Notes under the pieces: model-generated | The model's input: the letters and a program-made list of their open reading frames with translations, nothing else | What the model was told of the DNA's origin: nothing | Databases searched by the model: none | Position numbers and translations under genes: made by a program | Shown here: one piece after another, positions 14,184-32,529 of the stretch | How the letters are laid out: each line of letters opens with the position of its first letter | How positions within the stretch are numbered: the stretch's first letter is position 1 | Origin: an uncultured Bacteroidales bacterium | GTDB taxonomy: Bacteria > Bacteroidota > Bacteroidia > Bacteroidales > UBA932 | Assembly (NCBI GenBank): GCA_946616285.1 | Contig: CAMOIT010000001.1 | Span: forward strand, 1 to 32,529 | Direction of reading: 5' to 3' | DNA length: 32,529 nt

Positions 14184-14262
14184 GGGGCAGTTTTTCGACC
14201 CGAGGCCGTTGTGATTTATGCTAAAATTTCAGTATATTAGCGGAAATTATATACTGGAAAGT

Positions 14263-17154
14263 ATGAAACGATTCTTCTTGTTTGCCCTGGCCATGGCGGC
14301 CGTGATGGGGTGCGAAAAAGGACCGGCGCTGCTGGACCCTGCAAAGTTCGATGGCGAAGTTGACGGAAAAAAGGTGGCTCTGTACACCATCCAAAACGGG
14401 GATGTGAGCGTGCAGGTGACCAATTTTGGCGCCCGCGTGGTCTCGACATTTACCAAGGACAGGGACGGAAAATGGGCTAATATCGTGGTGGGCCACGACA
14501 ATCTGGCCGATTATGTGACGCCTCCCGGAGAGCGCTTCCTTGGCGCTACGGTGGGTCCTGTGGCAAACCGCATCGGCGCGGCTCAGTTCACCGTGGACGG
14601 GGAAACGTACAATACCCCTGTCAACGACAACGGGAAGAATACGCTGCATGGCGGATTCATAGGCATCGACAACCTGGTATGGGATGTGAAAGCCGTGACG
14701 GACAGCTCCTTAACACTGGGTTTGCTGCATCCGGACGGCCTGGAGGGCTATCCCGGCAACCTGGACATCACCCTCACCTATAGCGTCAGCGCGGCTTCTG
14801 AGTTCGGCGTGTACGTTGAGGCTGTGACAGACAAGGCCACTCCGGTGAACATCACGCACCATCCTTTCTTCCGCTTGGGAGAGGGAAGCGTGGAGGATTA
14901 CCGGATGTGGATCAAGGCTTCGGCCTATCTGCCCATCGACCCTCTGAGCATTCCCACCGGGGAAATTGCGCCTGTGGAGGGTACGCCCTTTGATTTCCGC
15001 ACGCCCCACGCTATAGGCCAGTTCATCGGCCAGGATAATGAGCAGCTGCGCAACGCCAGAGGGTACGACCACAACTGGTGCCTGGATAAAGAAACCGACG
15101 GCGTGGAGCTGGTGTGCAGCGTTGTGGACAACGAAACGGGCCGTTTCGTGGAGGTCCTGACCGACCAGCCAGGCCTGCAGTTCTACAGCGGCAACTTCTT
15201 TACCGGGGACGAATATCGCGGCTCCCTGGCCCTGGAAGCCCAGCGCTGGCCGGATGCCGTGAACCATGAGAATTTCGGCCAGGTACTTCTGCAGCCCGGC
15301 GAAAAATATACTTCCACTACCCTTTACCGCTTGGGCGTGAAACCCGTCTGGGAGCCCGCGGGGGAGCGTATCCGCACCACCTGGGCCGATGAAGTGTCCC
15401 CGCAGAATGCCCGTCCGGAATATCCCCGTCCGCAGCTTGTGCGCAAGGATTGGAAGAACCTGAACGGCCTGTGGGACTATGCTATCGTCCCGGCCGACGC
15501 CCCCAAGCCTTCCTACCGCGACGGTCAGATCCTGGTGCCCTTCTGCGCTGAATCGGCCCTTTCAGGCGTAGGCCTGAGGGTGGGAGAAAAGAACGCCCTC
15601 TGGTACAGGACTTCCTTCGACGTGCCCAAGGCATGGAAGGGCCGTGTGCTGCTGCACTTTGACGCTGTGGACTGGAAGACGCAGGCCTGGCTCAACGGCA
15701 AGGAATTGGGCATCCATACCGGCGGCTATACTGCTTTTTCCTTCGACATAACTGACTTCCTGGCCGAAGGCTCACAAGAGCTGGTAGTGAAGGTGCTTGA
15801 CGGCACCGACAACGGCGAGCAGCCCCGCGGGAAGCAGGTTTCCAACCCCCACAGTATCTGGTACACGCCTGTCACCGGCATCTGGCAGACGGTCTGGCTG
15901 GAGCCCGTTGCCGCGGCCTACGTAAAGGACTACAACGTGGTGGCCGATATCGACGCCGGCACTATTACCGTCCTGGCTGATGTTGAAGGCCCCGCCGACG
16001 AAGTTTCCATAGTCCTGAAGGAAGGTGGGGAGGGCTATTCCACGCTTGACGGAAAGGCCGGGGAGAAGATTGCCGAAGTAAGCGTAAAGCCCGGCGAGGC
16101 AGCTGTGCTGGAGGTCCCCGGCGCCGAGCTCTGGTCTCCAGAGCATCCTTACCTCTATGCGCTTGAAATCCAGACGCTTGCCGACGGAAAAGTGCAGGAC
16201 AAGGTATCGGCCTACACAGCCCTTCGTAAAAGCTCCGAAGTGAAGGACGCAGCCGGTTACCGCAGGCTGGGCCTTAACGGCAAGCCGTACTTCCAGTTCG
16301 GCCCGCTGGACCAGGGCTGGTGGCCCGACGGCCTTTACACTGCCCCCACCGACGAAGCTATGGTCTATGACATCGTGAAGACGAAGGACTGGGGCTGGAA
16401 CATGATACGCAAGCACATCAAGGTGGAACCCGCCCGCTGGTACTGGTACTGCGACCGCATGGGCGTTGCCGTGTGGCAGGACATGCCGTCCCTCGCCGGC
16501 AACATAACGGCGGAAAAAGGCGATCCCAATCCTCAGTGGGGACAGTGGGGCTACGACACCGGCTGGGACTATCCGCTCACGGAAACCGCAAAGGCCACAT
16601 ATTATAAGGAATGGGGCGAAATAATGGCACAGCTCAAGAAGTACCCGTGCATCCTGGTGTGGGTGCCCTTCAACGAAGGCTGGAGCCAGTTCGACACCGA
16701 AAAGGCCGTTGCATTTACATACGAACAGGATTCAACCCGCCTGGTGAATTCCGCATCCGGCGGCAATTCCCGCCTCTGCGGCGATATTCTTGATGGCCAC
16801 AACTACCCCAGGCCCACCATGAAATTCCGTTCCGAGGGCCGCCAAATCGACGTCCTTGGCGAGTACGGCGGCATTGGCTGCGCCATTCCGGACCACCTGT
16901 GGCAGGCCGACAGGAACTGGGGCTACAAAGGCCTATGTGCCAATGGAGAGGAAGTCCTTGCGAAGTACGAAAAATACGCCGACATGTTCATCCCTACCAT
17001 ACTTGATGGTGTATCGGCCGGCGTTTATACCCAGACCACCGACGTGGAGATTGAAGTGAACGGCATCATGACCTACGACCGCAAGGTGATCAAGGTGGAC
17101 GAAGAGAAATTCCGCGCCATTAACCAGCGTGTGCTTTCCACGCTTAAGGATTAA
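14263..17154 (+). CDS. Lipoprotein fusion: aldose 1-epimerase domain + glycoside hydrolase family 2
   Basis: Signal MKRFFLFALAMAAVMGC. N-half: NFGARVVSTF, GATVGPVANRIGAAQF, LHGG, THHPFFRLG, YDHNW (GalM). C-half: LVRKDWKNLNGLWDYAI, WYRTSFDVP, WVPFNEGWSQFD (acid/base Glu), LGEYGGIG (nucleophile Glu). Confidence 0.9.
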   Translation: MKRFFLFALAMAAVMGCEKGPALLDPAKFDGEVDGKKVALYTIQNGDVSVQVTNFGARVVSTFTKDRDGKWANIVVGHDNLADYVTPPGERFLGATVGPVANRIGAAQFTVDGETYNTPVNDNGKNTLHGGFIGIDNLVWDVKAVTDSSLTLGLLHPDGLEGYPGNLDITLTYSVSAASEFGVYVEAVTDKATPVNITHHPFFRLGEGSVEDYRMWIKASAYLPIDPLSIPTGEIAPVEGTPFDFRTPHAIGQFIGQDNEQLRNARGYDHNWCLDKETDGVELVCSVVDNETGRFVEVLTDQPGLQFYSGNFFTGDEYRGSLALEAQRWPDAVNHENFGQVLLQPGEKYTSTTLYRLGVKPVWEPAGERIRTTWADEVSPQNARPEYPRPQLVRKDWKNLNGLWDYAIVPADAPKPSYRDGQILVPFCAESALSGVGLRVGEKNALWYRTSFDVPKAWKGRVLLHFDAVDWKTQAWLNGKELGIHTGGYTAFSFDITDFLAEGSQELVVKVLDGTDNGEQPRGKQVSNPHSIWYTPVTGIWQTVWLEPVAAAYVKDYNVVADIDAGTITVLADVEGPADEVSIVLKEGGEGYSTLDGKAGEKIAEVSVKPGEAAVLEVPGAELWSPEHPYLYALEIQTLADGKVQDKVSAYTALRKSSEVKDAAGYRRLGLNGKPYFQFGPLDQGWWPDGLYTAPTDEAMVYDIVKTKDWGWNMIRKHIKVEPARWYWYCDRMGVAVWQDMPSLAGNITAEKGDPNPQWGQWGYDTGWDYPLTETAKATYYKEWGEIMAQLKKYPCILVWVPFNEGWSQFDTEKAVAFTYEQDSTRLVNSASGGNSRLCGDILDGHNYPRPTMKFRSEGRQIDVLGEYGGIGCAIPDHLWQADRNWGYKGLCANGEEVLAKYEKYADMFIPTILDGVSAGVYTQTTDVEIEVNGIMTYDRKVIKVDEEKFRAINQRVLSTLKD

Positions 17155-17443: not shown

Positions 17444-19699
17444 TTATCTACGGGCGTCGATGATGCGTCCGTTCCAGTTTAAGCCGAAGGCGAAGTCATA
17501 TACTGAGCCTTCGGCATCTGTATAGCAGCGCATGTCTCCAGGAGTGTCCTCGAACTGCTCCTCAACAGTGCGCATATCGGCCGGAAGCTGGCACGGGAGC
17601 TTGCCTACAGGAGCGAACTTGCCGCTGATTACGTCAAGCAGGGCGTTGTTGCATACGCCGAAGCCCAGCAGGATAGCATCGGCATAGGGCTCGACCTCGG
17701 CGGGAACAAAGGGACGGTCTACATGGATGACCAGGACAACGGGTTTGTCCCCCATCAGGGCCTTAGTATCCCGGACCATGTACATATCAGGCTCGTTGGA
17801 AGAGTATTCTGTCCGGCCTTTATAGCTGCGGTTGGCAGATGCCTCGGAAGGATCCCCGCCGGCAAGGCTGACCTCGCGGGCATATTCGGCCGTGTAGGGG
17901 CCCCACTGCAGGGAAATGGGATTGTAATGTCCTTCCTTTTCTCCATCGCCAGGCTGGATATAACCCCAGTGACCGTAGGGAGTCTTGATGGAAACAAGGG
18001 CGAAGTCGGCTTCTTCCGGGGATTCGGCAATGTCAAAATACCTCGACAGAAGTTCATGGGAGAAAGGATATTCGTCATACTCTTCCGTGGGCTTCATCCA
18101 ATGTGTAAGGCCGGCAGGGACGTGACGAAGCGGCTCCCAGACCTTGGGACGAGATGCCCGGTCGGTGCCGGGCATGACAGGTAGCACATGCCCATGGTTT
18201 TTCAGCATGACTATGCTCTTGAGCTGGGCATCATAACCGGCGGCGACGAATTCCTTGCAGCCCACGATCTCATCGGCCTTTACGGGGTCCACGTAAGGGT
18301 TTTCAAAGAGGCCCACGCGGAAAATGTTCAGGAGCAGGCGGCGGGCGCTGAGCTCAAAGCGTTCACGGGCGCTTTCGACCCCATACTTCTCTTCCCAAAG
18401 CTTGTAAGCCTCCAGGCTTGGGCCATTGTCATAGACACCACCCAACTGGTCGCAGCCGGCCTCGAAGGCCTTCAGACGGCGCTCGGCGAGGCTGGCAGTT
18501 TCCATCCCCCAGGGGGTGCCCTTGTGCTGCCAGGCAACGGTATAGTCCTTTACAATGCCCCAGTCCGTGCAAACCACGCCTTCAAATCCATATTTGTCAC
18601 GAAGAAGGTCCTGAATAATGTACTTGCTGAATCCGTTACCAACATTCTCTCCGCTCGGATCCTGATTGTAAGAAATTGTATAATAAGGCATAACGGCCGA
18701 CGCCGAGGAGGTTTTGCCCTTCAGCTTGAAGGCCCCTTCGGTGAAAGGAATAAGCCCCAGCGCAAAGTTTCCACCTGGGTATACGGCATATTTGCCAAGG
18801 GAGAAATGGGCATCGCGGCCGCCTTCGCCACTTCCTCCGCCCGGCCAGTGCTTGACCATACAGTTGACACTCTGGTTACCCCAGCCGTCTTTACTTCCAG
18901 GTGTGGTCTGGAAGGCGTCGCAATATTCGCGGGCAATGGCGGCATTAAGCTCCGGATCCTCGCTGAAAGTGCCGTAGAAGCGGCGCCAGCGCGGATCGGT
19001 GGCAATGTCGATTTGGGGCGAAAGTGCCGTTGCGATGCCAAGCGCACGGTATTCGGCCGATACAACCTCACCGTGACGACGTATGACATCCATGTCAAAA
19101 GTGGCGCCCATACCCAGCTCACGCGGCCAGCGGGAAATACTGCTGCTGCCGTCCGGGTCGAACTCCCCGTCAGGCTCGTGATTGTAGGTGCTGGTATTGG
19201 TTTTCCCGTTAGTGTAATTGCGAGGGTCGGTTGAATTGTTGGCCGGGATGCCAAGGGGCATTGATTCGCACAGCGCCTGTACTTTATTGGCCCATGCTGC
19301 GCCGGCTCCGGGAGAAGAGATTCCGGCCACCAGAACATGGCGTACGTTGTCTTCAGAGAGGAATTTAATCTGTTTCTCACTGAGCTCCGGCTTATCAATC
19401 GTAACCGACGAAGAATAAATCATCAGTCCGCAAATCTGCTCCACGCTCATCTGTGAGGCAAGGTCCGCCGCCCGTTTTTCGGCCGGAAGCCGCCAGTCCT
19501 CATAAGGGTCCAGCGCACCGTTGCGGTTAAGGTCCTTGAACAGCAGATCCTTCTCCATTATTGTTGGAGCGCTGCTGTATCCCAGTACAGGGCCCTTGGT
19601 CTGGATTGCGAGCGTGTAGCCGTCGTGCGGCTCAAAATTAATCCTATTAGGCGTGCAAGAGACTGTCGCCGCAAAGCAAAAGATAAACAGTTTTTTCAT
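17444..19699 (-). CDS. Glycoside hydrolase family 3 lipoprotein (paralog A)
   Basis: Signal MKKLFIFCFAATVSC; SPQIDIATDPRWRR, KHWPGGGSGEGGRDAH, GVVCTDWGIV (nucleophile Asp). Confidence 0.92.
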   Translation of the reverse strand: MKKLFIFCFAATVSCTPNRINFEPHDGYTLAIQTKGPVLGYSSAPTIMEKDLLFKDLNRNGALDPYEDWRLPAEKRAADLASQMSVEQICGLMIYSSSVTIDKPELSEKQIKFLSEDNVRHVLVAGISSPGAGAAWANKVQALCESMPLGIPANNSTDPRNYTNGKTNTSTYNHEPDGEFDPDGSSSISRWPRELGMGATFDMDVIRRHGEVVSAEYRALGIATALSPQIDIATDPRWRRFYGTFSEDPELNAAIAREYCDAFQTTPGSKDGWGNQSVNCMVKHWPGGGSGEGGRDAHFSLGKYAVYPGGNFALGLIPFTEGAFKLKGKTSSASAVMPYYTISYNQDPSGENVGNGFSKYIIQDLLRDKYGFEGVVCTDWGIVKDYTVAWQHKGTPWGMETASLAERRLKAFEAGCDQLGGVYDNGPSLEAYKLWEEKYGVESARERFELSARRLLLNIFRVGLFENPYVDPVKADEIVGCKEFVAAGYDAQLKSIVMLKNHGHVLPVMPGTDRASRPKVWEPLRHVPAGLTHWMKPTEEYDEYPFSHELLSRYFDIAESPEEADFALVSIKTPYGHWGYIQPGDGEKEGHYNPISLQWGPYTAEYAREVSLAGGDPSEASANRSYKGRTEYSSNEPDMYMVRDTKALMGDKPVVLVIHVDRPFVPAEVEPYADAILLGFGVCNNALLDVISGKFAPVGKLPCQLPADMRTVEEQFEDTPGDMRCYTDAEGSVYDFAFGLNWNGRIIDARR
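18154..18175. repeat. Hairpin ATGCCCGG(TCGGTG)CCGGGCAT inside GH3 paralog A
   Basis: 8-bp perfect arms, 6-nt loop; translated as MPGTDRAS on the minus strand. Confidence 0.8.
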
Positions 19700-20622
19700 C
19701 GTATTGTATTCCATACAAGTTTCCGTGCTTCGTCCGCATCATCTTCGGTCCCGGGAGGACAGAAGATGATGTCTTCAGGTTTTATGTCCAAGAGAGTATA
19801 GGCGTAACAAAGGGAGGCGATGTACTTGGGCATACCCTCCGCCAGGTGAGTGTTGTCCTGACTCCGTTGGAGAAGATAGCCGTATTGTGAAAGGGATTCA
19901 TCGGCACGACAGGCCTCGATGGCCTTTCCCACGTTAATGCAGGCGTCCATTCCCAGTTCCCGGCATGCCTTTGGGGCGGCCTTCTGAATCAGCCTATACT
20001 GCTTACGGTAAAGCTTGTCCCATCCGGCCTGGTCCTTCGGCGTGCGACCGCCGTTATAGGCATCCACGGCCGCCTGCCGATAGTCGGTATTGCCTTTGGG
20101 ATATGCAAACGGAACCATGAGCGCGGTCTTCATGCTATAGCCGCACATTGCCTTCACTTCGGCCATCAGCTCCTTTATGCCGCAGGATTCCCAAATGCCG
20201 CCGAAGGTGGCTTCCGGCTGAAATACAATCCAGTCCCAGGGCTCGTCCTTTACGATGCTTTCCAATGTGACTCCTATGCCGGCCAGGCCGTTTTCATAGC
20301 CCTCTGATGGCGTTTTTCTGGGATCTTCTGTTGCGGTATACTTCCAATACTGATAGGTAGAATGCACCTTCTGCTCCTGTCCGTTGTGAATATATACGTA
20401 GTTGGTATCGCTGATTCCATGCCACTGATCTACCAGCGTGCTGCCGCCCAGATAGCCGTGGCCTACAATCACCGGCTTTCCTGCGCTGGAAGCTATTGCA
20501 CTTAGGTAGCGCATACTGTCACGGGTCCAGCTGTTTCCTACGCCCAGGATACGCAGGGTGTCAGACTGCTGCGCCGATGCGATGCAGGAAATCAGCAGAA
20601 CCATTATTGTCAGCCGTTTCAT
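19696..20622 (-). CDS. Secreted SGNH-like / DUF4886-like hydrolase
   Basis: Signal MKRLTIMVLLISCIASAQ; LRILGVGNSWTRDSMRYL (GNS) and C-terminal DNTHLAEG (DxxH). Confidence 0.8.
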   Translation of the reverse strand: MKRLTIMVLLISCIASAQQSDTLRILGVGNSWTRDSMRYLSAIASSAGKPVIVGHGYLGGSTLVDQWHGISDTNYVYIHNGQEQKVHSTYQYWKYTATEDPRKTPSEGYENGLAGIGVTLESIVKDEPWDWIVFQPEATFGGIWESCGIKELMAEVKAMCGYSMKTALMVPFAYPKGNTDYRQAAVDAYNGGRTPKDQAGWDKLYRKQYRLIQKAAPKACRELGMDACINVGKAIEACRADESLSQYGYLLQRSQDNTHLAEGMPKYIASLCYAYTLLDIKPEDIIFCPPGTEDDADEARKLVWNTIR

Positions 20623-22091
20623 TCTGAGTAAAGTTTGATGCGGTATATTCCAGAGACTTTGAAGCGTTCGTGGGCGGCTTTTTTGAATCGGCGCTGGTAA
20701 GAAAGGCCGTACATTGGGGCGGGTATGATTGTTCCGTCCGGCGCGGTGAAGTCATCCTGGTAAAGACGTCCGCGCAGGTAGAGCATATTGTGATGGCCGG
20801 TTTCATCACCGTTCAGCACCTGCCATACCTTTCCGTCGCGGAGTTCCTCGCATGATGCAAGATGTCCGCTGAAGCTGATCCAGGCGCCCACGCCGGCGAT
20901 GATATATTCGTCGGGCGCCGTTTGGACGATGATTCCATGGGCGTTCTTCTCTCCATCAATGCAGTGAACGTAAAAAGTGTAATTACCCAGGGGAAGTGAT
21001 AATTCAGCATCTTCCGGATCTACTTTGGGCTCCCTGTAGAAAGCGCGCATTGGATGGTCTTCGCAAAGAAGAGGCATCATCTCGGAAATGACACGGCACT
21101 CCTGAACATAATATGGATTATCGTAATTCTCCTCATAGCCGAAGGAGAAAATCCCTTTGGCGCCGGCTTCGCCCAGGGCGTACCAAAGCCTGCCGGCATC
21201 GCATTTGGTTTCAGGAATAAAGAGCGGCTGACCTTCAGCATACGCACCGCAGATGCGGCCAAAACCGGGATTGTAGATGTCAGGCGACACCCAGTCGAGA
21301 TGTGGTGCGTGCTCTTTCCAGACGTCCAGGACGCATTCCCGAGGGCCGCCGTTGGGGTATTTCCCATAGGGGGCATCGGCCGCCTTGAGCCATGCGTTGG
21401 AGAACATAGGAATATCGTAGACTTCCTTACCGGCTACGGCAACTTGGTCGATATACTTTGCAAAAGCCTGAGCCATAAAGCGCTGCGGAGCAAGCGGGTC
21501 GGTATCGGTCTCCCAGCCGCCTTCCTGCCAGGCTTTCAGCCCTTCCGGACAGCAGTCCCTTTCGATAAAGGCGCCACATTCGTTTTCAACTTGAATACAT
21601 ACCACCCTGTGATCTTTGTCCGCCTTTTTTAGATGCGCCATCAAAGCAGAAAATGCAGCTTTGTCGGCTTCCAGAGCCTCTTTGCAAAATGGTGAAATGG
21701 CCGTAGAAACAGACCCGTCAGGGGCAACCGCGTAGAAACTGTTCTGCCTTATCCATAACGGCGGGTAAGAGGATTCACCGTTTTTCCAGGTGCCGAACCA
21801 GAGAAGGCCAAGGTACAGATCCCGCTTTTCGGCTGCTTTCAGCAGGTGGTCCACCAGCGAGAAATCAAACACTCCCGGTTCGATTTCTGTCTGTGCCCAG
21901 CTTACTGGCGCAAGAACAGCGTTGTAGCTCAGCGCTACAGCTATATCCAGGGAAGAATCCATGGATTCCGGCGTCGAGGCGTTGGAATTGTGCATCTCCC
22001 CTCCGAACAGCACTTGGGGGGCTTCTTGCCGTATCGTGCAAGACGCGGCGAGAATCATAAAGAGCAGGATAACAATCGTGTATTTTTTCAT
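20619..22091 (-). CDS. Secreted beta-galactosidase-like enzyme (GH35-type with DUF5597-like C-terminus)
   Basis: Lipoprotein signal; GGEMHNSNASTPESM, APVSWAQTEIEPGVFDFSLVDHLL, VCIQVENECGAF (NE acid/base), LFIPETKCDAG. Confidence 0.82.
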   Translation of the reverse strand: MKKYTIVILLFMILAASCTIRQEAPQVLFGGEMHNSNASTPESMDSSLDIAVALSYNAVLAPVSWAQTEIEPGVFDFSLVDHLLKAAEKRDLYLGLLWFGTWKNGESSYPPLWIRQNSFYAVAPDGSVSTAISPFCKEALEADKAAFSALMAHLKKADKDHRVVCIQVENECGAFIERDCCPEGLKAWQEGGWETDTDPLAPQRFMAQAFAKYIDQVAVAGKEVYDIPMFSNAWLKAADAPYGKYPNGGPRECVLDVWKEHAPHLDWVSPDIYNPGFGRICGAYAEGQPLFIPETKCDAGRLWYALGEAGAKGIFSFGYEENYDNPYYVQECRVISEMMPLLCEDHPMRAFYREPKVDPEDAELSLPLGNYTFYVHCIDGEKNAHGIIVQTAPDEYIIAGVGAWISFSGHLASCEELRDGKVWQVLNGDETGHHNMLYLRGRLYQDDFTAPDGTIIPAPMYGLSYQRRFKKAAHERFKVSGIYRIKLYSE

Positions 22092-24061
22092 GGCAATTCT
22101 ATAATCAAAACAGCATCTGCGCGAAGGGGACGCGAATCAGTCTCGCCCGTGAGTGTAATCTTTACGGGGCCGGCCTCAAATTCATATTCTCCGAGAGGTG
22201 CCCATTCCCCTTTGGTCTGTCCCACAAGCGGGATGGAGCGGGCATCCACGGTGATTTGATTGGCCTGGCCGGAGTTTTCTATTCGGTAATGCGTAATGGG
22301 CGCAAGCGGATCTTTCAAATTCAGATAAGAATACAGGGCGTAGTGTCCCGGTCTGGAAAGCTCACCTTCAAAGATAACAGGGGCATCTGGTTTCGAGGCC
22401 TGGAGTTCCAGATAGGTGGGACCGTAACCACGGTTTTTGCGGACGCGTTCCCAATTCGGCGCAGAAACCTTCCCGTCCAGGTCGTCAATCAGGATATCAG
22501 GTGCGGAACCGTCCAGGCAGGGATCGGCCATTATCCGGTCCCGAATATCGGCCGCCGGCACGTCCTGGAGCGGAATGCCTTCGGCTATAGCTTTGTCTGC
22601 AACCATGGCTGCCACCTGCCCCAGCGTCATGAATACGGGTTCCATACGGATGGAACCGAAGGCGATATGGCTGGCACTAAGGCACACCGGAACGGCAAGA
22701 TTGGTACACTCGGCCCGTTTTGGGAGGATGGCACGAAGGGGAATCGGGTACGGTCCGGGTGTCTTGATCTGGACGTCCCCTTCGTTGCGCACCTGTCCGT
22801 CCACGACGATCCTCCTGCAATTGTGGGAATCCATCTGGTAAGCAGCCATGGCGACAGCGTCAGGGATATCCGTCCTTCCTTCACAGTCGGCCTGGGTGAT
22901 GACATAATCCGAGACCATCCGGCGTCCTTCCCTAACGTACAGTTGCGGCGTCCAATGGCCGCTGCAGGGATACTCGTCCTTCGGAAGTCCCCAGCGCATG
23001 TATTCCGCCTGCAGAGATGACGGCACACGCGGATCCGTCTGCATAAACCACAGGAGCCCAATCGTATAGTCGTAATGCGCCTTCCAGATTTCGTGACGCC
23101 GCGCGTACGAGGCGGTTGGCCAGTCGTAGTTGCCGCCAATCAAATCGGTGGAAAAGCCTCCGAAGTTGTTGATGTCGGTCTTGCGGCAGGGCATATTGTC
23201 CCAGATAAAATATCTCGTTCCGTCGTCCTGTACCGCCAAAAGCCTTGCGAGGAGTTCGTAACGGGATGCATCGTATCCTTCCGGCTTCCGGAGGGGAATC
23301 TGATTCTCCAGGCTGTCGGTAAGGCAGATGCGAAAGTTGTATGCCTGCAACAGTGAGTCTCCTTCGCCTTCCTCGCCTGTCTTATCTGCCGATATGCCCC
23401 ACAGCAGACCGCTTGTGCTGTCTCCGGGCTGTTTGTAAGGGTCTATCCCGTCCGGGAACTGATGATGCCTGGAAAGGTGACGGCCGTTCCAGGATTCGCC
23501 GTAGGTGATGGCGCTTTCGCGGCCGATGGTGTGGCTGACATCTGCGGCAGCCATCAGATCGCCTTCGTAACTGGCATCGATGAACATTCCGGCGCGGATG
23601 GTCTGCCGCTTCCCGCACCAATGCCCGTCCTCCCTTAAGGATTTGACACCTAAGGAAATGATGCGGGTATCCTGCTTTTCGACACCGCAGAGCCCGGTGC
23701 AGGTACGGATTGTTATGTGCGGATCGTCCAGATATCCATCAAATATTTCCGTGGCGACATGTGGCTCGAACACCCATTTCTCCAGAGTTCCATAATGCCC
23801 GCCGAGGTCCCGGTAGAACTTCCGTGAGAGTCCTTCCACGACTTGTTTGTTGCCAATGTCAGTCTGGCCGAGTCCGCCGGTAGTCATTCCTCCGATATGC
23901 CCCGTAGGCTCGATAATGACGACGCTACGCCCCAAAAGGGCGGCTGACTTTGCTGCAATCACACCGGAAGATGTGCCGCCATAAATGCATATATCATAAT
24001 CGTCCACCTTAGCCGCGCAGGCAGTCAGCAGCAGGGACAGTATGACAGCGAGGTATTTCAT
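22088..24061 (-). CDS. Secreted FAD-dependent oxidoreductase (FAD_oxidored-type lipoprotein)
   Basis: Signal MKYLAVILSLLLTAC; YDICIYGGTSSGVIAAKSAALLGRSVVIIEPTGHIGGMTTGGLGQTD; MFIDASYEGDLMAAADV. Confidence 0.88.
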   Translation of the reverse strand: MKYLAVILSLLLTACAAKVDDYDICIYGGTSSGVIAAKSAALLGRSVVIIEPTGHIGGMTTGGLGQTDIGNKQVVEGLSRKFYRDLGGHYGTLEKWVFEPHVATEIFDGYLDDPHITIRTCTGLCGVEKQDTRIISLGVKSLREDGHWCGKRQTIRAGMFIDASYEGDLMAAADVSHTIGRESAITYGESWNGRHLSRHHQFPDGIDPYKQPGDSTSGLLWGISADKTGEEGEGDSLLQAYNFRICLTDSLENQIPLRKPEGYDASRYELLARLLAVQDDGTRYFIWDNMPCRKTDINNFGGFSTDLIGGNYDWPTASYARRHEIWKAHYDYTIGLLWFMQTDPRVPSSLQAEYMRWGLPKDEYPCSGHWTPQLYVREGRRMVSDYVITQADCEGRTDIPDAVAMAAYQMDSHNCRRIVVDGQVRNEGDVQIKTPGPYPIPLRAILPKRAECTNLAVPVCLSASHIAFGSIRMEPVFMTLGQVAAMVADKAIAEGIPLQDVPAADIRDRIMADPCLDGSAPDILIDDLDGKVSAPNWERVRKNRGYGPTYLELQASKPDAPVIFEGELSRPGHYALYSYLNLKDPLAPITHYRIENSGQANQITVDARSIPLVGQTKGEWAPLGEYEFEAGPVKITLTGETDSRPLRADAVLIIELP

Positions 24062-24070
24062 TGTGATTAT

Positions 24071-25729
24071 TTACTCTTTGACAGACAGGAATCCGGCATT
24101 CCAGGCACCAAGCTTAGGGAGAGTAACGAATGCAGAGCCATCCTCCCTTTCAACGCGAAGCCCCACCGGCTTTCCCTTCATTTCATGCCAGGAGACATTT
24201 ATGACGCCTTCCGGCAACCCTGTAAGGCGCAGCTTAACGGGACCCTGGCTGTCGATCCGGACATTCAACAGCCCCACAGTCCGCAGATTCCCCTGTGCGT
24301 CAATTCGTGGAATCACGAGGCCGATAAAGGGCGAACAACATGTAACTGGGGAGTCAAATGCCTCGCGCAGTTGCTGCACTTGGGCGGATGTTTGTTTCGT
24401 CAGATTCGGCCTGCCCAAATCTACATCGTCAAGCGCGCCCAGTTCTTTCCCGGGGCCGGGCAGGACGGGAATTCCAGTACAGCCGAAGGCATAAAGCCTC
24501 TCGCAGCCAGCCTCTGTGCCGAGCCCGACGGGGATGGTTCCCTCATTAGCCCTTGCATAGGCCCTAAGCATAGGAATTCCCTCAGCAATAGGCTGTAGCA
24601 TAGTCTTAGAATAAACCTCAGCGCTCTCTCTTTCCGGCGCCATCACGAATAGGCTCAGCTTGTCAAGGCCGTAGGCGAGAGCCGTAAAGCCCTCCACCAG
24701 CACGCCCTGCGGGGTGCGTGAACCGTAGACTCGGGGCGAAGTCTCTATCTCGGGGCACCACTCCGTAATCCAGTCGTGGTCGCCCATCAATTCCCGGAAA
24801 CGGGCCGATTCCATACTTTTTATTACCTGCGGCGCTGCATTAACGTCATCAAAGTAAGAGCCTCCGCCGGGCCTGTAGCCGCATTCCTTGCCGCTGACCT
24901 CATGCAGCGTGCGCAGAATTGCGGTCTGTACCTTAACTGTTTCGGTCTTTCGGCTGCCCTGCAGACCGAATGTGGTTTCCGGGGAGATACGGGTGAATTC
25001 TTCGGCGATGATGCGGGCAATATTTATAAGGGAAGATGTGCAGAATGATTCCCATTGTTCCGCGACGGCGGGATTATTCTCCACAGCCTTAAGCAGCGTC
25101 TGCGCCGTCCAATGTGAGTTGCTGAAATAGTTGAAATCAGTGATACATCGCTTGCACCAGCATCCTATAGGAGACTCCTTGGTGGTGGAAGGCTGATGAT
25201 TTCCGTAACGCAGGTCATCGTCGATCCAGACGCTGCGGGGGTGGCATTCTGCGTAGATCTGTGACATCCGGTGGATATATTCAAGAAACTCCGGATCGCG
25301 CGGGCAGCTGGAGAACTTGTTTACAAGACCGGAGTAACCGATCCAGTGGGTCCATGTGAGCGCGCTGTACAAATGTTCCTCACCCACCGCCAGTTGATCT
25401 CCATGTCCGATGGTCATCTGAATCTGGAGGGATGTGCCAATCCCAAGTTGCTTAAGCTGATCTGAACCGTGCTTAATCCGTTCTGCCCTCTCGTGCATAG
25501 TTTCGTCATCGGCAAACCCCAGTCCGGTGGAAAACCACACCTCGTCGCAGCACCCCGGGCTGTCCTTGATGGCCCGGTACGATTTCTCCCAATTCTCGTC
25601 GGAATAAGTCGCCGTTCCGCGAAGCCGAAGCATCACCAGAGGGTCGCTCTCCTGCTCTGCCGAAGGATGGCTGCATGCGAAGAGTAAAGCTATAGAAGCT
25701 AAAATAGAAAAGATGTGAAGTCTCGGCAT
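24071..25729 (-). CDS. Lipoprotein of unknown function, putative TIM-barrel glycosidase-like
   Basis: Lipobox IALLFAC; VWIDDDLRYGNHQP, GCWCKRCITDF, WITEWCPEIETSPRVYGSRTPQG resemble hypothetical glycosyl hydrolase-like TIM barrels. Confidence 0.65.
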   Translation of the reverse strand: MPRLHIFSILASIALLFACSHPSAEQESDPLVMLRLRGTATYSDENWEKSYRAIKDSPGCCDEVWFSTGLGFADDETMHERAERIKHGSDQLKQLGIGTSLQIQMTIGHGDQLAVGEEHLYSALTWTHWIGYSGLVNKFSSCPRDPEFLEYIHRMSQIYAECHPRSVWIDDDLRYGNHQPSTTKESPIGCWCKRCITDFNYFSNSHWTAQTLLKAVENNPAVAEQWESFCTSSLINIARIIAEEFTRISPETTFGLQGSRKTETVKVQTAILRTLHEVSGKECGYRPGGGSYFDDVNAAPQVIKSMESARFRELMGDHDWITEWCPEIETSPRVYGSRTPQGVLVEGFTALAYGLDKLSLFVMAPERESAEVYSKTMLQPIAEGIPMLRAYARANEGTIPVGLGTEAGCERLYAFGCTGIPVLPGPGKELGALDDVDLGRPNLTKQTSAQVQQLREAFDSPVTCCSPFIGLVIPRIDAQGNLRTVGLLNVRIDSQGPVKLRLTGLPEGVINVSWHEMKGKPVGLRVEREDGSAFVTLPKLGAWNAGFLSVKE

Positions 25730-25731
25730 AT

Positions 25732-27012
25732 CTACAAATTCAGCAGCATATTTGGGAGAATGGTTTGTATCATCTTCTCCGGAACACCGCAGTTGCGGGC
25801 AATTTCGGGCCAGCGTGCTGCGCTATCACAGACCTGGTCAATGATTTCTGGAGCATTTTTGATATTGTTGGAACTGGCGAATGCAAGTAAATCGGTGCGG
25901 CCGATTCCATCAAACTTTCCGTTTATAGACATTTGATGAGTGGATGTCCAGGCTCCCTCAGGGTTATATGCATAACCCATGTCGTATGCGGGAGAGAGTC
26001 GCCACTTCCCGTCCATTCCCATCAGAAATGATATGTTTTTGGTATGGTCATCCTGATTCCGAACCACTACATTGAACACCATGCGGCGGAACATCTCGGC
26101 TGCTTCGGCGTACGTCAATTTAAGGCGTCGCATTACATTAAATGCCTGTTCATACGAATAAGCCCTGTGAATCCGATGGTCGAAGTGGGCTAAACCGCAA
26201 AGTGTTTGCATATGAATCTTTTTCCCATCCCTGCGGTCGAAGCGTTTTGTAAGGAAATGGGCCCTCCCGTTTTCCTCAATAAGGGAGCATCCCGTCATGT
26301 CTATTCCACACTCGCGGACCAACTTTGCGAAAGAATACTCCAGCCTGCCATAGTTTTGGGTGTCGCGAAATCCAGCTTGGGCAGACACGCCGTCCAACTT
26401 TATTAGATAATAATCAAAGCCTTCCGGAGCATCAATCTGGCCGGAGCGCACCTCGCCAGTTTCTTTGTTATAGGCAATGATTGCTTTTGCACGCTGGCCG
26501 CCGGCCGATGTCCCCAGCCGCAGTATTTCGGCTATTGCCTTTTTCTTATCCTCCTTAAGGTTGGCGCCAAAAGCTTCTTTATTGGACAAGGCCTCACGGG
26601 CTACTTCTACCAGGGAATCAATCTCTATCTTTAGGTTAGGATTGGCGTCCGGCCCTGTGGCTGGCTCAAACTCCATTGCACCCATACAGCGCTTGCCCAA
26701 GAAGCACAGTGACTCGACAGGGTTCCCGGAAGTCCTTCCTGTCAAGGCCAGCCAACGGTCAAACAGCGCACGTCCGTACGTATCCGGCAAAGCGTCGGCA
26801 AGCATTCCTGGAAGTCCGTTGAAGGTGTCCCAGTTCAGAGAGCCGAAGGAATATACACGTCCAGTCTGAACAGGCATCATCAACGGCGACGGCTCTAGCC
26901 CCCTTTCGACAAAGGAAGGGTCATACTCAAATCTTGCCAGATTGTACTGGCTGTCCCATACGAATGTTCCGACATCGGGGCCGAACATTCGCAGCCTGGC
27001 GCTGTTTACCAT
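25732..27012 (-). CDS. hipA: HipA-family serine/threonine kinase toxin
   Basis: LPDTYGRALFDRWLA, GTSAGGQRAKAIIAY (Gly-rich loop), YYLIKLDG, catalytic NVVVRNQDDHTKNISFLM, LSPAYDMGYA. Confidence 0.93.
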   Translation of the reverse strand: MVNSARLRMFGPDVGTFVWDSQYNLARFEYDPSFVERGLEPSPLMMPVQTGRVYSFGSLNWDTFNGLPGMLADALPDTYGRALFDRWLALTGRTSGNPVESLCFLGKRCMGAMEFEPATGPDANPNLKIEIDSLVEVAREALSNKEAFGANLKEDKKKAIAEILRLGTSAGGQRAKAIIAYNKETGEVRSGQIDAPEGFDYYLIKLDGVSAQAGFRDTQNYGRLEYSFAKLVRECGIDMTGCSLIEENGRAHFLTKRFDRRDGKKIHMQTLCGLAHFDHRIHRAYSYEQAFNVMRRLKLTYAEAAEMFRRMVFNVVVRNQDDHTKNISFLMGMDGKWRLSPAYDMGYAYNPEGAWTSTHQMSINGKFDGIGRTDLLAFASSNNIKNAPEIIDQVCDSAARWPEIARNCGVPEKMIQTILPNMLLNL

Positions 27013-27350
27013 TCAGACTCCTCCTCTTTTGCTTTAATACTTCCAGAGGCCCTCTTTCTACTATGCTTCACAGTCGAATTCTGGAGTGCATAAATCTCCG
27101 ACGGGCTCATTTGCCGTTCGTTTACCAAATCTTGTAAGCTGTCCAGAAAACCAAGAGTTCGGATTATGCGGAGAAACGATTCAAACGAGCCTATCTCTCC
27201 TCCCTCGATTTTCTTAATCGAGGACAGAGAGACTTGCGAAGAGTTTGCCAGGCTTTGCTGCGTGATGTTTTGCTTAAGCCTTGCCGACTTGAGTCTGCTG
27301 CCCATACGCCACTGAATCTGAGTGTCCGAAAGCATGTAAATATCTTCCAT
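27006..27350 (-). CDS. hipB: HipB-like XRE antitoxin/autorepressor
   Basis: LKSARLKQNITQQSLANSSQVSLSSIKKIEGGEIGSFESFLRIIRTLGF (XRE); overlaps hipA start by 7 nt (ATGGTAA). Confidence 0.88.
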   Translation of the reverse strand: MEDIYMLSDTQIQWRMGSRLKSARLKQNITQQSLANSSQVSLSSIKKIEGGEIGSFESFLRIIRTLGFLDSLQDLVNERQMSPSEIYALQNSTVKHSRKRASGSIKAKEEESEW

Positions 27351-27358
27351 AATAGACT

Positions 27359-27405
27359 AAAATTAAACTATTACGCGGCAAATATAATAATTATAGTTTA
27401 ATTTT
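27359..27405 (-). promoter_or_regulatory. hipBA operator/promoter: 13-bp inverted repeat bracketing the -7 box
   Basis: AAAATTAAACTAT (27359-27371) / ATAGTTTAATTTT (27393-27405), perfect arms, 21-nt spacer. On the minus strand GTTG (27409-27406) - 19 nt - TATATTTG (27386-27379). Confidence 0.8.
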
Positions 27406-27418
27406 CAACCATTGCTCG

Positions 27419-29563
27419 TTATAAACCGAAACCGAAATCGTAAACGTTGCCGTCGGAATCGGTCCAGGGGGCCATATCCTGAGGAACATCTTCAAGCTGG
27501 CGCTCCACTTCTGCCATGGAGGCGGGGAACTGCATTGGAAGGCGGCCGGAAGGGGTGCGGGCGCCGGAGACCAGCTCCAGGAGGGCCTTGCTGCGAACGC
27601 CAAAGGCTACCAGGATGGCATCGGCCCAGGGCTCGAATTCCATAACAACGGGACGGGTGGTCTGGAGCAACACGACGACGGGCTTGGCGCCCATCGCGGC
27701 CTTGGTATCCTTTACAAGCGCAAGGTCGGTCTCATTTTCCACCTTGATTGTACAGCCCTTGTAGGAGCGTTCGCCTTCGCGAGCTTCTGTGGCCGTATAA
27801 GGTGAATACTGAAGAGAAATCGGCATATACTGCCCGTCCTTATAGCCGATACCGCCTTCCGGCTCGGTAATGGCCACAAGTGCAAAATCGGCCTCTTGCG
27901 GCGCTGGGACGAGGGTATAATACTTGGCAACTACAGACGTATCCACCGAATAACCCACGTACGGAGCTTTTTTCAAACGTCCGGTCATGGAATATACGCC
28001 AGGAATGCGGCGCTGGGGCACGTAGACCTTTGGACGAGATGCCCGGTCGGGGCCGGGCATGACGGGAATTACGCCGCCGTGGTTCTTCAGCATCACAACA
28101 GATTTTACCTGCGCCTCTTCGCCCCGGGCAAAGGCCTCAGGGTCGGAAAGCACTGCTTCTGCATTGTCGACATCCACATACGGATTTTCAAATACCCCCG
28201 TGCGGAACATCGCTTCAAGCACTTTCCGGGCCGAACACTCCCAGCGTTCCCTGGCCGATGCTTCACCATATCGGGCGCACCAAAGCGGCCATGCCTGCAT
28301 GATTTCGTCAGCCATGACCGAGCCGCCAAATTCGTCAATTCCTGCCTCCAACGCCTTGAAGATGCGCTGCCCAACGGTCAGATCTTCCACTCCGTAGCAT
28401 TTGCCGCCCGTGGTGAGAGGGTTTCCGTTGTAGTCCGGCACAATGCCCCAGTCCGTACAGACAATACCCTTATATCCATAACGCTTAATCAGCAGGGAAT
28501 CAATCATAAAAGAACTGTAGCTGTTGCCAACGTTCTCCCCGCAAGGATCCTGCCTGTATGAGATTGTATAGTACGGCATGATGCCGGCGGCGCTCAAGTC
28601 AAAGACATCCATGTGCGTTTGCAACCTGCCTCCGGGGAACACCCCGTATTTGCCGATGGCGAGGTGCGCATCCCTTCCGCCTTCTCCTGTACCGCCGCCC
28701 GGCCAGTGCTTCTCTATGCAGTTTATCTCCGGCTGCATCTCGTCAATATAGGCCGATGCCATAGCGTGTACAAGATCCGGATTTTCTCCGAAAGTTCCGG
28801 GAACGCGCCTCCAGCGCGGTTCCGTTGCAAGATCAGCTTGAGGCGACAGGGCAGTGCGGAAGCCCAGTGCCTGATACTCCAACTTCACCGTAGCAGCAAA
28901 ATCGCGCACTACGTCTGTATCAAATGTGGCTGCCAGTCCCAGCGGCGTAGGCCACTGAGAACATACGCCCCCGCTTCCCGCATTGTACTCGTCCGTGGCC
29001 TTGATCTCATTACGGGGGTCCGTCGAATTGGCGCAGGGAATGCCGAAAGGCTGTGCCTCCACAAGAGCCTGCACTTTGTTGTTCCAGCGGGCGATGGTCC
29101 CGGGGCCGTCAGAATGGGCCAACAAAACTTGGCGAGTGTCAAAATTCACCAGAGCGTCCCGCAGACGGTCGCAGATATCGGAAGGCTCAGCTCCGCTCTC
29201 TGAATACGGCAGTCCGTTGTAAGTAATGCCGGAAACGCTCATGGACGAAATGCCAGGAACGTTTACGGTGTGTCCGTTGGTCATCATGCCGGAAAGATAT
29301 TCGGGAGGCAGCTTTGCGGCCAGATCTTCCGCCCTTTCAGCGGGCGTGAGCCTCCAGTCCTCGTATTTGTCAAGTACCCCGTTGCGGTTGAGGTCCTTGA
29401 ACATGAGGCCCTTCTCCATTATCGTCGGCACACTGCTATAACCCAGAACCGGTCCCTTAGTCTGGACAGCGAGCGTATATCCGTCGTGCTCTTCCAGACT
29501 GACTTCATTTGGCGTGCAGGATACCACCGTCGCCAGAAAAAGGATAATGCTAGTCTTTTTCAT
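27419..29563 (-). CDS. Glycoside hydrolase family 3 lipoprotein (paralog B)
   Basis: Signal MKKTSIILFLATVVSC; SPQADLATEPRWRR, KHWPGGGTGEGGRDAH, GIVCTDWGIVPD; closely similar N-terminus to 17444-19699. Confidence 0.92.
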   Translation of the reverse strand: MKKTSIILFLATVVSCTPNEVSLEEHDGYTLAVQTKGPVLGYSSVPTIMEKGLMFKDLNRNGVLDKYEDWRLTPAERAEDLAAKLPPEYLSGMMTNGHTVNVPGISSMSVSGITYNGLPYSESGAEPSDICDRLRDALVNFDTRQVLLAHSDGPGTIARWNNKVQALVEAQPFGIPCANSTDPRNEIKATDEYNAGSGGVCSQWPTPLGLAATFDTDVVRDFAATVKLEYQALGFRTALSPQADLATEPRWRRVPGTFGENPDLVHAMASAYIDEMQPEINCIEKHWPGGGTGEGGRDAHLAIGKYGVFPGGRLQTHMDVFDLSAAGIMPYYTISYRQDPCGENVGNSYSSFMIDSLLIKRYGYKGIVCTDWGIVPDYNGNPLTTGGKCYGVEDLTVGQRIFKALEAGIDEFGGSVMADEIMQAWPLWCARYGEASARERWECSARKVLEAMFRTGVFENPYVDVDNAEAVLSDPEAFARGEEAQVKSVVMLKNHGGVIPVMPGPDRASRPKVYVPQRRIPGVYSMTGRLKKAPYVGYSVDTSVVAKYYTLVPAPQEADFALVAITEPEGGIGYKDGQYMPISLQYSPYTATEAREGERSYKGCTIKVENETDLALVKDTKAAMGAKPVVVLLQTTRPVVMEFEPWADAILVAFGVRSKALLELVSGARTPSGRLPMQFPASMAEVERQLEDVPQDMAPWTDSDGNVYDFGFGL
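28039..28060. repeat. Hairpin ATGCCCGG(TCGGGG)CCGGGCAT inside GH3 paralog B
   Basis: 8-bp perfect arms, 6-nt loop; translated as MPGPDRAS on the minus strand. Confidence 0.8.
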
Positions 29564-30620
29564 ACCTGTGAAGTATTTCCATAATCGGATCCTTCACGGA
29601 TTCCATCCAGAGAGTGTAGCCGTAAGAGTCGGGGTGCGTACCGTCGGAGGTGGCTTCGTGGCGCTCCGAAGTGGCATTTGTGGTATTGACCCAATAGACA
29701 TTGGGATACTTTGCGACCATCTCGGTCATTAGTTTTTCGGCATTCTCACGTTTGGCGTGCTCCTTGGCGTCGTATGAGTCGCTGAAATTGCGTTTTTCCC
29801 TCCGGATGGTCTGCAGGAAAATAAGCGGAACGCCAGGCTTGGCCTCTACAAACTTCCGGATAAACGGTTCCAAACGCTCCTGAACTTCTGCCGGAGTAGG
29901 ATTTGAGAAAGCATCAAAAACATACGCGTCCACATCGGCCTTCACCAGGGCATCGGCGAAGTATGGTTGGAGCTTGCAGTTGCCGCTGAAGCCGAAGTTC
30001 ATGAAATTCATGCCACTCTCACGGCTGAGCTGTGCCTCCCAGGTCATCGCGCATCGGCCTGCACCGGAGCCTTGGGTGAACGACGAACCGAAGCAGGCAA
30101 TTCGGCCTTTGAAGGGAACGGGGGCCGATTCTATCCATGTCCCGTCGTCGGTAACTATCTCCAGCGATGCAATCCTGGAAGATAGGGGCAGGTAAAGGAT
30201 GCACTGCTTCTCTTCACTGCCTGAATCCGGAATCAACTGCACCTCATGCGGGACATCGGCATCATACTTTTTGGGGTATCCGTTCCCGGCCCACATCCAT
30301 CGGCCATCCGGTGCCTTCATATAAAGGTCGAAGCCGCGGGCTGCGATAGTGGCGCTGTTGCCTCCTACGGCCCCGCTGCCGCGATAAACGACCCTTACGC
30401 CGATGCTTTTGGAATTAGTGGAAAAGGCAACAGCCAGGCCGCTGCTCTGCTTTGCCTGGTTCTTCTCTCCGTCAATCATCCCGGGAAGCGGATCTACACG
30501 GTCATAAGGATGCACTGTCTGAAAAACCTTTCCGAAAAATGTAAGGTTCTGTACATCAGTATAATTCTGCGCCGATGCAAGGCATGAAATCAGCAGTGCA
30601 AGTATGGTCAGGCGTTTCAT
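29550..30620 (-). CDS. Secreted SGNH/GDSL-type esterase with N-terminal beta domain
   Basis: Signal MKRLTILALLISCLASAQ; IACFGSSFTQGSGAG, GTHPDSYGY (catalytic Asp/His). ATG 30620 preferred; GTG at 30629 is an alternative. Confidence 0.88.
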   Translation of the reverse strand: MKRLTILALLISCLASAQNYTDVQNLTFFGKVFQTVHPYDRVDPLPGMIDGEKNQAKQSSGLAVAFSTNSKSIGVRVVYRGSGAVGGNSATIAARGFDLYMKAPDGRWMWAGNGYPKKYDADVPHEVQLIPDSGSEEKQCILYLPLSSRIASLEIVTDDGTWIESAPVPFKGRIACFGSSFTQGSGAGRCAMTWEAQLSRESGMNFMNFGFSGNCKLQPYFADALVKADVDAYVFDAFSNPTPAEVQERLEPFIRKFVEAKPGVPLIFLQTIRREKRNFSDSYDAKEHAKRENAEKLMTEMVAKYPNVYWVNTTNATSERHEATSDGTHPDSYGYTLWMESVKDPIMEILHRYEKD

Positions 30621-30625
30621 TCTGT

Positions 30626-31789
30626 TCACTTATTTGCGGGAAAAACTCTGTCGATTATAAGGGCGATTGCTCCGTCGCCGGTGACGTTGCACGCGGGGCC
30701 GTATCCGTCAAGAGCAAGATATATGGTCATAAGGAGGGCTGTCTGCTCAGGGCTGAAGCCAAGGATGCTTTCGAGAAGTCCGACGGATGCCATAAGGACG
30801 CCGCCCATCACGCCGGGCGAAGCCACTGTGGCGATGGCCTGCATCAGTATAAAGTTGAAATACAGAGCAAAGGGGATGGGAGTTCCGGTGATATAGGCAA
30901 CGGCGGTAGCGGTAGCGGCCAGTTTGATGGTGGAGCCGCACATATGCACGTTGGAGCACAGTGGAATGGTGAAATCGGCTATGTCCTCACGTACGCCGTT
31001 CTTAAGTGTGCAGCGCGTAGTAACTGGAATAACTGCGCTGGAAGAGCAGATGGAAAAGCCCGTCAGGTAGGCCGGGAACATATTCCAGAGACACTTTAAA
31101 GGATTCTTGCGGGCAATAGCGCCGGCTATGCAATACTGAATCACCAGGTATAGGATGGAAAGGGCTACTCCAGTCAGGATAATCTTGGCCCCGGAGCCCA
31201 GTACAACTGCAATCACGCCCTTTGCGCTCATCTCGCAGATCATGGTGAAGATGTAGAAGGGGAGCAGGGGAATGATCACCTTTTCCATCGTAATCTTCAC
31301 AATTTCGCCAAACTCGTCAAAGCCTTTCTTCAGCTTTTCAGTACCGGTATAGATAATTCCGAGTCCGATCATAAAGGAAAGGCAAAGGGCCGTCATGATG
31401 TCGCAGATAGGCGGAATCTTAAGGTCGACGTATGGCTCAAAGGTCTTTGCCGCTACAGCCTCGGTGGAAAGCTCGCCCGGCGTAAGGTAATGCGGAAACA
31501 GGATGCTGCCGCTGCCGTATGCGAACAGGCCCGCGCAAACGGTCGATGCATAGGCGATAAGCACTACCGCAAGCAACATTTTCCCGGCGCCTTTTCCCAG
31601 ATTGGCAATGGCCGGAGTGACAAGGCCTATTACCAAAAGCGGCACGATGAACTTCAGGAGCTGGGCTATCAGGACGTTGAAAGTCTTGAAAATGCGCACT
31701 ATTACATCTGGAGCGACAAGCCCCAGAAGCGCCCCCAGTAAGATGGCGATAAGTACCTTTACAAACAGGCTGAGTTTAATCTTTTTCAT
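30626..31789 (-). CDS. Dicarboxylate/amino acid:cation symporter (DAACS family)
   Basis: About 8 TM segments; SSAVIPVTTRCTLKNGV, CSNVHMCGSTIKLAATATAV, ALDGYGPACNVTGDGAIALIIDRVFP. Confidence 0.9.
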   Translation of the reverse strand: MKKIKLSLFVKVLIAILLGALLGLVAPDVIVRIFKTFNVLIAQLLKFIVPLLVIGLVTPAIANLGKGAGKMLLAVVLIAYASTVCAGLFAYGSGSILFPHYLTPGELSTEAVAAKTFEPYVDLKIPPICDIMTALCLSFMIGLGIIYTGTEKLKKGFDEFGEIVKITMEKVIIPLLPFYIFTMICEMSAKGVIAVVLGSGAKIILTGVALSILYLVIQYCIAGAIARKNPLKCLWNMFPAYLTGFSICSSSAVIPVTTRCTLKNGVREDIADFTIPLCSNVHMCGSTIKLAATATAVAYITGTPIPFALYFNFILMQAIATVASPGVMGGVLMASVGLLESILGFSPEQTALLMTIYLALDGYGPACNVTGDGAIALIIDRVFPANK

Positions 31790-32529
31790 CTAGTACTTCA
31801 AATCAGAAATAAGAGGGAAATGGAAAGCCGGATAATGCAGTGTGCCGTCTGCGGTAGGGAATTTCTTCCTTAGGACGGCATAGCTTTCTACGGTAAATCC
31901 GTCCTCGAAGATATGGTCGGAGCGTCCTCCCTGGATTTTGCCCTCGTCCACCGAATTGCTGCAATCCTTGACTTTTATGGCGCCCTCGTCCAGGGTACCC
32001 TCGTCATTCATTACATTGTGCACGTCCAGCCAGACGGAAGAATTCATCATCTTGCCGCCGTCAGAGCCGGGAGCATTATGGGCCGATACTGCAATGATGG
32101 ACGGCATTCCGAATGGCACTACGTCGTTACGCATCAGATCCAGCAGATTCTTGGCCGTGGCCACGTTAATCTCCGGATACACAACCTTTTGGCCTTTATC
32201 GTACTGAGTAGGGCCGGCCAGAGACGCACTTGTGAATATCAATTCCTTTCCAGCCGATTTATCGTACAGCTTCACCCACATCATCGAGGTGTTGGCCGAG
32301 CCGTATTTCAATTCAGGAGCCCTTCCCGGCTTGTCGAAAATGCCGCTGAGCCAGTATATCCCCCAGTCCCGGAGTTCGAAGCGGGAGGCGCGCCAGATAA
32401 TGGCATTGCCATTGGCCATAGTCCCTTCCAGAGGGTAGTTCGGGTTGGCATTGGAAAGCGCCAGCCACTCGTAGTCGCCACCTCTTTCCTTAAGGATGTC
32501 GATAAACGGGCTCACTCCGTCCCGGCGTC
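31790..32529 (-). CDS. Endonuclease/exonuclease/phosphatase family protein, partial (N-terminus outside window)
   Basis: Open to the window edge (RRDGVSPFIDIL...); WLSGIFDKPG, ELIFTSASL, GRSDHIFEDGF, FHFPLISDLKY. Confidence 0.7.
   Translation of the reverse strand, partial: RRDGVSPFIDILKERGGDYEWLALSNANPNYPLEGTMANGNAIIWRASRFELRDWGIYWLSGIFDKPGRAPELKYGSANTSMMWVKLYDKSAGKELIFTSASLAGPTQYDKGQKVVYPEINVATAKNLLDLMRNDVVPFGMPSIIAVSAHNAPGSDGGKMMNSSVWLDVHNVMNDEGTLDEGAIKVKDCSNSVDEGKIQGGRSDHIFEDGFTVESYAVLRKKFPTADGTLHYPAFHFPLISDLKY

Follow-up and report, generated by a model that had tools for sequence, protein, structure and literature searches.

The hipBA pair described here is inserted midway through a polysaccharide utilization locus (PUL) of an uncultured Bacteroidales bacterium. 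It is probably an ordinary, autoregulated HipBA cassette that inserted at a PUL gene junction, where related bacteria either lack the cassette or have lost it. The window (the whole analyzed stretch of 32,529 nt) forms the first part of a 104-kb contig (C1) in a 1.6-Mb draft genome of 112 contigs that is 71% complete. The features around hipBA are listed in Table 1; the first PUL gene shown there runs past the window edge to C1:32800.

Table 1. Genes and predicted regulatory sites at and around hipBA, in window coordinates.
Feature	Position	Strand	Remarks
EEP-like (endonuclease/exonuclease/phosphatase-like) secreted protein	31790..32529	-	PUL member; assigned by similarity to neighbours
SDF-family (sodium:dicarboxylate) transporter	30626..31789	-	PUL member
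SGNH/GDSL esterase	29550..30629	-	PUL member
GH3a	27419..29563	-	GH3 glycosidase; same strand as hipB and upstream of it
Operator O1, AATGGTT-N8-AACTATA	27392..27413	-	Predicted HipB site (sequence match); begins 63 nt upstream of hipB ATG
hipB promoter, TTG-N19-TATATTTG	27379..27408	-	Predicted (consensus match); Bacteroidetes sigma-ABfr type
Operator O2, AATAGTT-N8-GTCTATT	27351..27372	-	Predicted HipB site; abuts the start codon
hipB	27006..27350	-	Putative HTH antitoxin/autorepressor, 114 aa
hipA	25732..27012	-	Putative HipA-family kinase toxin, 426 aa
Lipoprotein gene	24071..25729	-	Putative TIM-barrel, glycosidase-like
FAD-dependent oxidoreductase	22088..24061	-	With Golvesin_C domain
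GH35-like glycosidase	20619..22091	-	With DUF5597
DUF4886 protein	19696..20622	-	
GH3b	17444..19714	-	GH3 glycosidase; final PUL gene

The first-pass annotation had placed hipBA at the head of a glycan operon. Beyond hipB, however, same-strand PUL genes continue upstream as far as C1:67408, and the nearest of them, GH3a, stops 68 nt from hipB, so hipBA is internal to the PUL. The PUL spans about 50 kb on one strand, with minus-strand genes from C1:67408 down to 17444. From its far end it encodes an MR/MLE enzyme, an SDR, an MFS transporter, a DUF6377 protein (C1:60852-62414), two beta-helix lipoproteins, a SusC-like protein and SusD, followed by BACON and Big_2 proteins, EEP-like secreted proteins, a GH97 fusion, the SDF transporter, SGNH and GH3a, then hipBA, and finally the lipoprotein, FAD, GH35, DUF4886 and GH3b genes. 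Several related EEP-like proteins lie in tandem, one of them fused to GH97 (G000:C1:31790-41220). At the other end, the PUL converges with a plus-strand gene for a fused aldose 1-epimerase and GH2 glycosidase of 978 aa (window 14218-17154). The SusD and SusC-like genes, the surface lipoproteins and the many glycosidases on one strand are typical of Bacteroidetes PULs, but this locus differs in being interrupted by a toxin-antitoxin cassette. It also differs in its regulators, with IclR and DUF6377 proteins and no hybrid two-component or ECF regulator among the proteins scanned. The IclR gene is divergent and lies at the cluster's far end (C1:67523-68272). HipB is thus the sole DNA-binding protein within the window, as had been proposed, but not in or beside the cluster, since the IclR and DUF6377 genes lie outside the window.

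The tight gene junctions that had been read from the sequence agree with the coordinates: hipB and hipA overlap by 7 nt, the lipoprotein ATG lies 2 nt past the hipA stop, the FAD gene follows after 9 nt, and 4-nt overlaps are present at 22091/22088 and 20622/20619. A third such overlap (19699/19696) is obtained with the second Met of GH3b (19699) as the start, but not with the longest ORF, which starts at 19714. Pfam likewise recovered the HipA, HTH, FAD_oxidored, GH35, DUF4886 and GH3 domains. No family was matched in the Pfam scan of the lipoprotein; its AlphaFold model resembles TIM-barrel glycosidases in the PDB (mean pLDDT 80 in the best of five models, 56-64 in the others), which is consistent with its description as a putative TIM-barrel protein. 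The GC contents of hipB (46%) and hipA (51%) are lower than those of the neighbouring genes (53-56%). Codon usage is atypical in hipB and in some hipA genes, and automatic gene calling overlooked them; gene calls around hipBA in the relatives were made with the hipBA coordinates forced.

HipA consists of an N-terminal Couple_hipA domain (PF13657, 2.3e-14) and a HipA_C domain (PF07804, 4.3e-49), and the HTH protein (HTH_19) encoded immediately upstream is HipB; both the gene order and the HipA domains are those of E. coli HipBA. The kinase motifs are intact, as first noted: GTSAGGQRAK, NxDDHxKN and PAYD are all conserved and, aligned to HipA and HipT, comprise the Gly-rich loop with the phosphorylated Ser, the catalytic motif and the metal-binding Asp (invariant residues G167, S169, G171, G172, N319, D321, D322, H323, K325, N326 and D344). 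Among solved structures, the kinase core is closest by sequence to HipT of Legionella (8ezr, 7vkb; profile E 4e-17), with E. coli HipA only distantly similar (profile E about 1e-6). HipT of the HipBST system lacks the N-terminal domain, which is supplied by a separate HipS, whereas here this domain is fused into a single HipA. A reading of hipBA as a defence system was rejected, with PADLOC returning only weak HTH and kinase matches. The contig also carries another, distant hipBA pair some 72 kb away, whose HipA is about 34-38% identical (G000:C1:99484-101071, L063).

Upstream of hipB, two predicted HipB-type palindromes flank a TAnnTTTG box, O1 being placed between the -33 and -7 elements. 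Each operator has two mismatches to the consensus AATAGTT-N8-AACTATT, which is found exactly in some relatives, and their joint match level was reached by none of 300 shuffles. The geometry is fixed across most members of this HipBA subfamily, with O1 at -63, O2 at -22 and the TAnnTTTG box between them at -36 (nearly all members); conservation begins at O1, which delimits a promoter/operator unit of 63 nt. The half-site spacing of N8 is shared with the E. coli HipB operators, TATCC-N8-GGATA (PMC3920265, PMC3376134), but the operator sequence differs, there are four sites in E. coli and two here, and the present cassette is embedded within a metabolic operon. As a sigma-70 scan is unsuited to Bacteroidetes, promoters were sought with the -7/-33 consensus of PMC7366714 (TTG-N18-21-TAnnTTTG, coding strand, 17 to 68.5 kb), and the hipB promoter was the only full match on the PUL coding strand. 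No terminator-like site was found in scans between GH3a and hipB or between hipA and the lipoprotein gene.

To place the cassette in a comparative frame, orthologous PULs were sought in 400 congeners with the GH97 fusion as the query, and about 15 were found. Only three of these contain hipBA, which is absent from at least eight. The occupied site is the GH3|lipoprotein junction in the window and the GH35|p475 junction in two other species (G348 and G275). The first junction is empty in G271, with a short gap, and in G106, where both genes lie in one frame; the latter forms an open frame of 1246 aa that may be a natural fusion of GH3a and the TIM-barrel lipoprotein (L109 11855-15571). The second is a direct ATGA junction in G011, G262 and G420 and an equivalent tight junction in G385. 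In G348 and G275, HipA is 79% identical and the ATGA overlap with p475 is retained despite the insertion. A strong truncation of GH3a by the insertion was considered and rejected, as GH3a of the relatives stops only a few residues later or continues into the lipoprotein.

The sister species G175 has the closest PUL (GH35, SGNH and GH3b 81-82% identical), and its GH3a|lipoprotein junction of 178 nt carries hipBA-like ends (L105 14190-14400). The left end matches the hipB promoter (46/57 nt, E 4e-10) and the right end the final codons of hipA (44/63 nt, E 7e-6); the two keep their order, and the interior is gone. By this sequence match, the junction is a scar, the remnant of a lost hipBA whose neighbouring enzymes were mostly kept. 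About 90 nt of other sequence occupy the scar interior. An assembly or binning artefact could be imagined in a draft as fragmented and incomplete as this one, but an independent genome shows the same junction as a scar, and two further genomes carry hipBA embedded within the same PUL family, making the joining of unrelated DNA highly improbable.

In the HipA tree, the window HipA, G379, G338, G348 and G275 form one clade (97/98), within which G338, G348 and G275 group to the exclusion of the window HipA (99/95). As the two PUL insertions do not come out as sisters, they are probably separate events, although a single old insertion that later moved may also account for them. By a back-of-envelope estimate (about 20 insertions, these PULs amounting to about 0.06% of the sequence searched), the chance of a second landing would be near 1%. 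Since two sites in one PUL family are more than random landing readily gives, the association of hipBA with the PUL may be non-neutral. One such role is that of an addiction guard, in which loss of a PUL segment would also remove the antitoxin and be punished, stabilizing an accessory locus. Two different positions within one PUL family, reached by insertions that are not sister, would fit such a role, but G175 lost hipBA and yet kept the PUL, indicating that hipBA loss is tolerated, and other cassettes adjoin batD, capsule-type and housekeeping-type genes. We regard the addiction guard as improbable.

The cassette is not confined to glycan loci. HipA proteins with 66-75% identity and the same promoter geometry occur in records from Bacteroides, Prevotella, Muribaculaceae and Paludibacteraceae that lack these enzymes. 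In most embedded cases the upstream gene stops at -61 to -69, and in five (the window, G348, G275, G114 and G296) the next gene also lies within 5 nt. A co-directional upstream gene is more frequent in the subfamily (22/25) than for distant HipA (8/17; p 0.006, rows not all independent), whereas tight embedding on both sides does not differ significantly (7/26 versus 1/20; p 0.11, rows again not all independent). In G158, a distant HipA (38%) pair is also placed tightly between same-strand secreted/lipoprotein genes, at 72 and 45 nt (L201 4501-6089). It is conceivable, but doubtful, that the Bacteroidales subfamily is a plug-in promoter cassette that lands co-directionally at the junctions between operon genes, repeatedly within glycan loci, and brings downstream genes under HipB/HipA control. 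If so, tight coupling to the next gene would be kept, and growth arrest and glycan use would be linked.

The first-pass annotation had further suggested that hipBA and the enzymes share one promoter and that HipB autoregulation sets enzyme expression. Of the shared promoter, the physical coupling, the lack of a terminator-like site in the scan and a hipB promoter with two palindromes still stand, but not the position at the PUL head. Transcription from this promoter could plausibly spill over into the five genes that follow, because it is the sole full consensus promoter on the PUL coding strand and no terminator-like site follows hipA. A domesticated regulator would go further: the HipB-repressed promoter would set the five enzymes and tie glycan degradation to the HipA/HipB balance and growth state. 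Besides the promoter and the missing terminator, such a role could explain the well-kept operators and the 2-nt and ATGA junctions with the downstream gene at the two PUL sites. Against it, hipBA is missing from most orthologous PULs, the closest PUL lost it and kept the neighbouring enzymes, the downstream genes differ between the two PUL types, and the cluster has a gene for another regulator, IclR, at its far end. The adjacent hipB pair makes up two of the four best operator matches in the genome; other matches are no more numerous than expected by chance and fewer than those of a reversed control pattern, and the PUL scan found no operator beyond chance at any other PUL gene. The survey of relatives also spoke against conserved linkage, since most congeners with the PUL keep the glycan genes but have no hipBA, hipBA copies with this promoter are mostly located elsewhere, and where hipBA does occur in an orthologous PUL it is internal rather than at a conserved operon head. 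Relatives without hipBA, or having lost it, suggest that the enzyme genes are independent of it. Domestication thus appears unlikely. The comparative record weighs against a dedicated HipB circuit for the enzymes; local control as a side effect could nevertheless occur.

The reading that we prefer remains that of an inserted, self-contained cassette. The 63-nt promoter/operator, hipB and hipA (about 1.7 kb in total) would constitute a complete type II HipBA toxin-antitoxin unit that inserted along the direction of transcription at a mid-PUL gene junction, in an ancestor common to G175. The analysis found neither a transposase or integrase nor a clear target duplication that accounts for its movement. 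The pair would function like other HipBA systems: HipB, with HipA as co-repressor, would bind the palindromes that surround its promoter, while unbound HipA would act as a growth-arresting serine kinase. As no terminator follows the hipA stop, where the cassette ends, read-through into and out of hipBA is possible: PUL transcripts may run on into hipBA, and those started at the hipB promoter may continue into the lipoprotein, FAD, GH35, DUF4886 and GH3 genes.

Overall, this is a known kind of system, a HipBA type II toxin-antitoxin, in an instructive setting, and its coupling to the PUL is real at the level of the DNA sequence. Our literature search found no paper treating both hipA and a polysaccharide utilization locus. 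At base level, this locus and its relatives offer a toxin-antitoxin insertion in a metabolic operon in occupied, empty and scar form, at two sites in one PUL family. With this set it becomes testable whether chromosomal toxin-antitoxin pairs ride along neutrally, serve as addiction guards or regulate downstream genes by accident.
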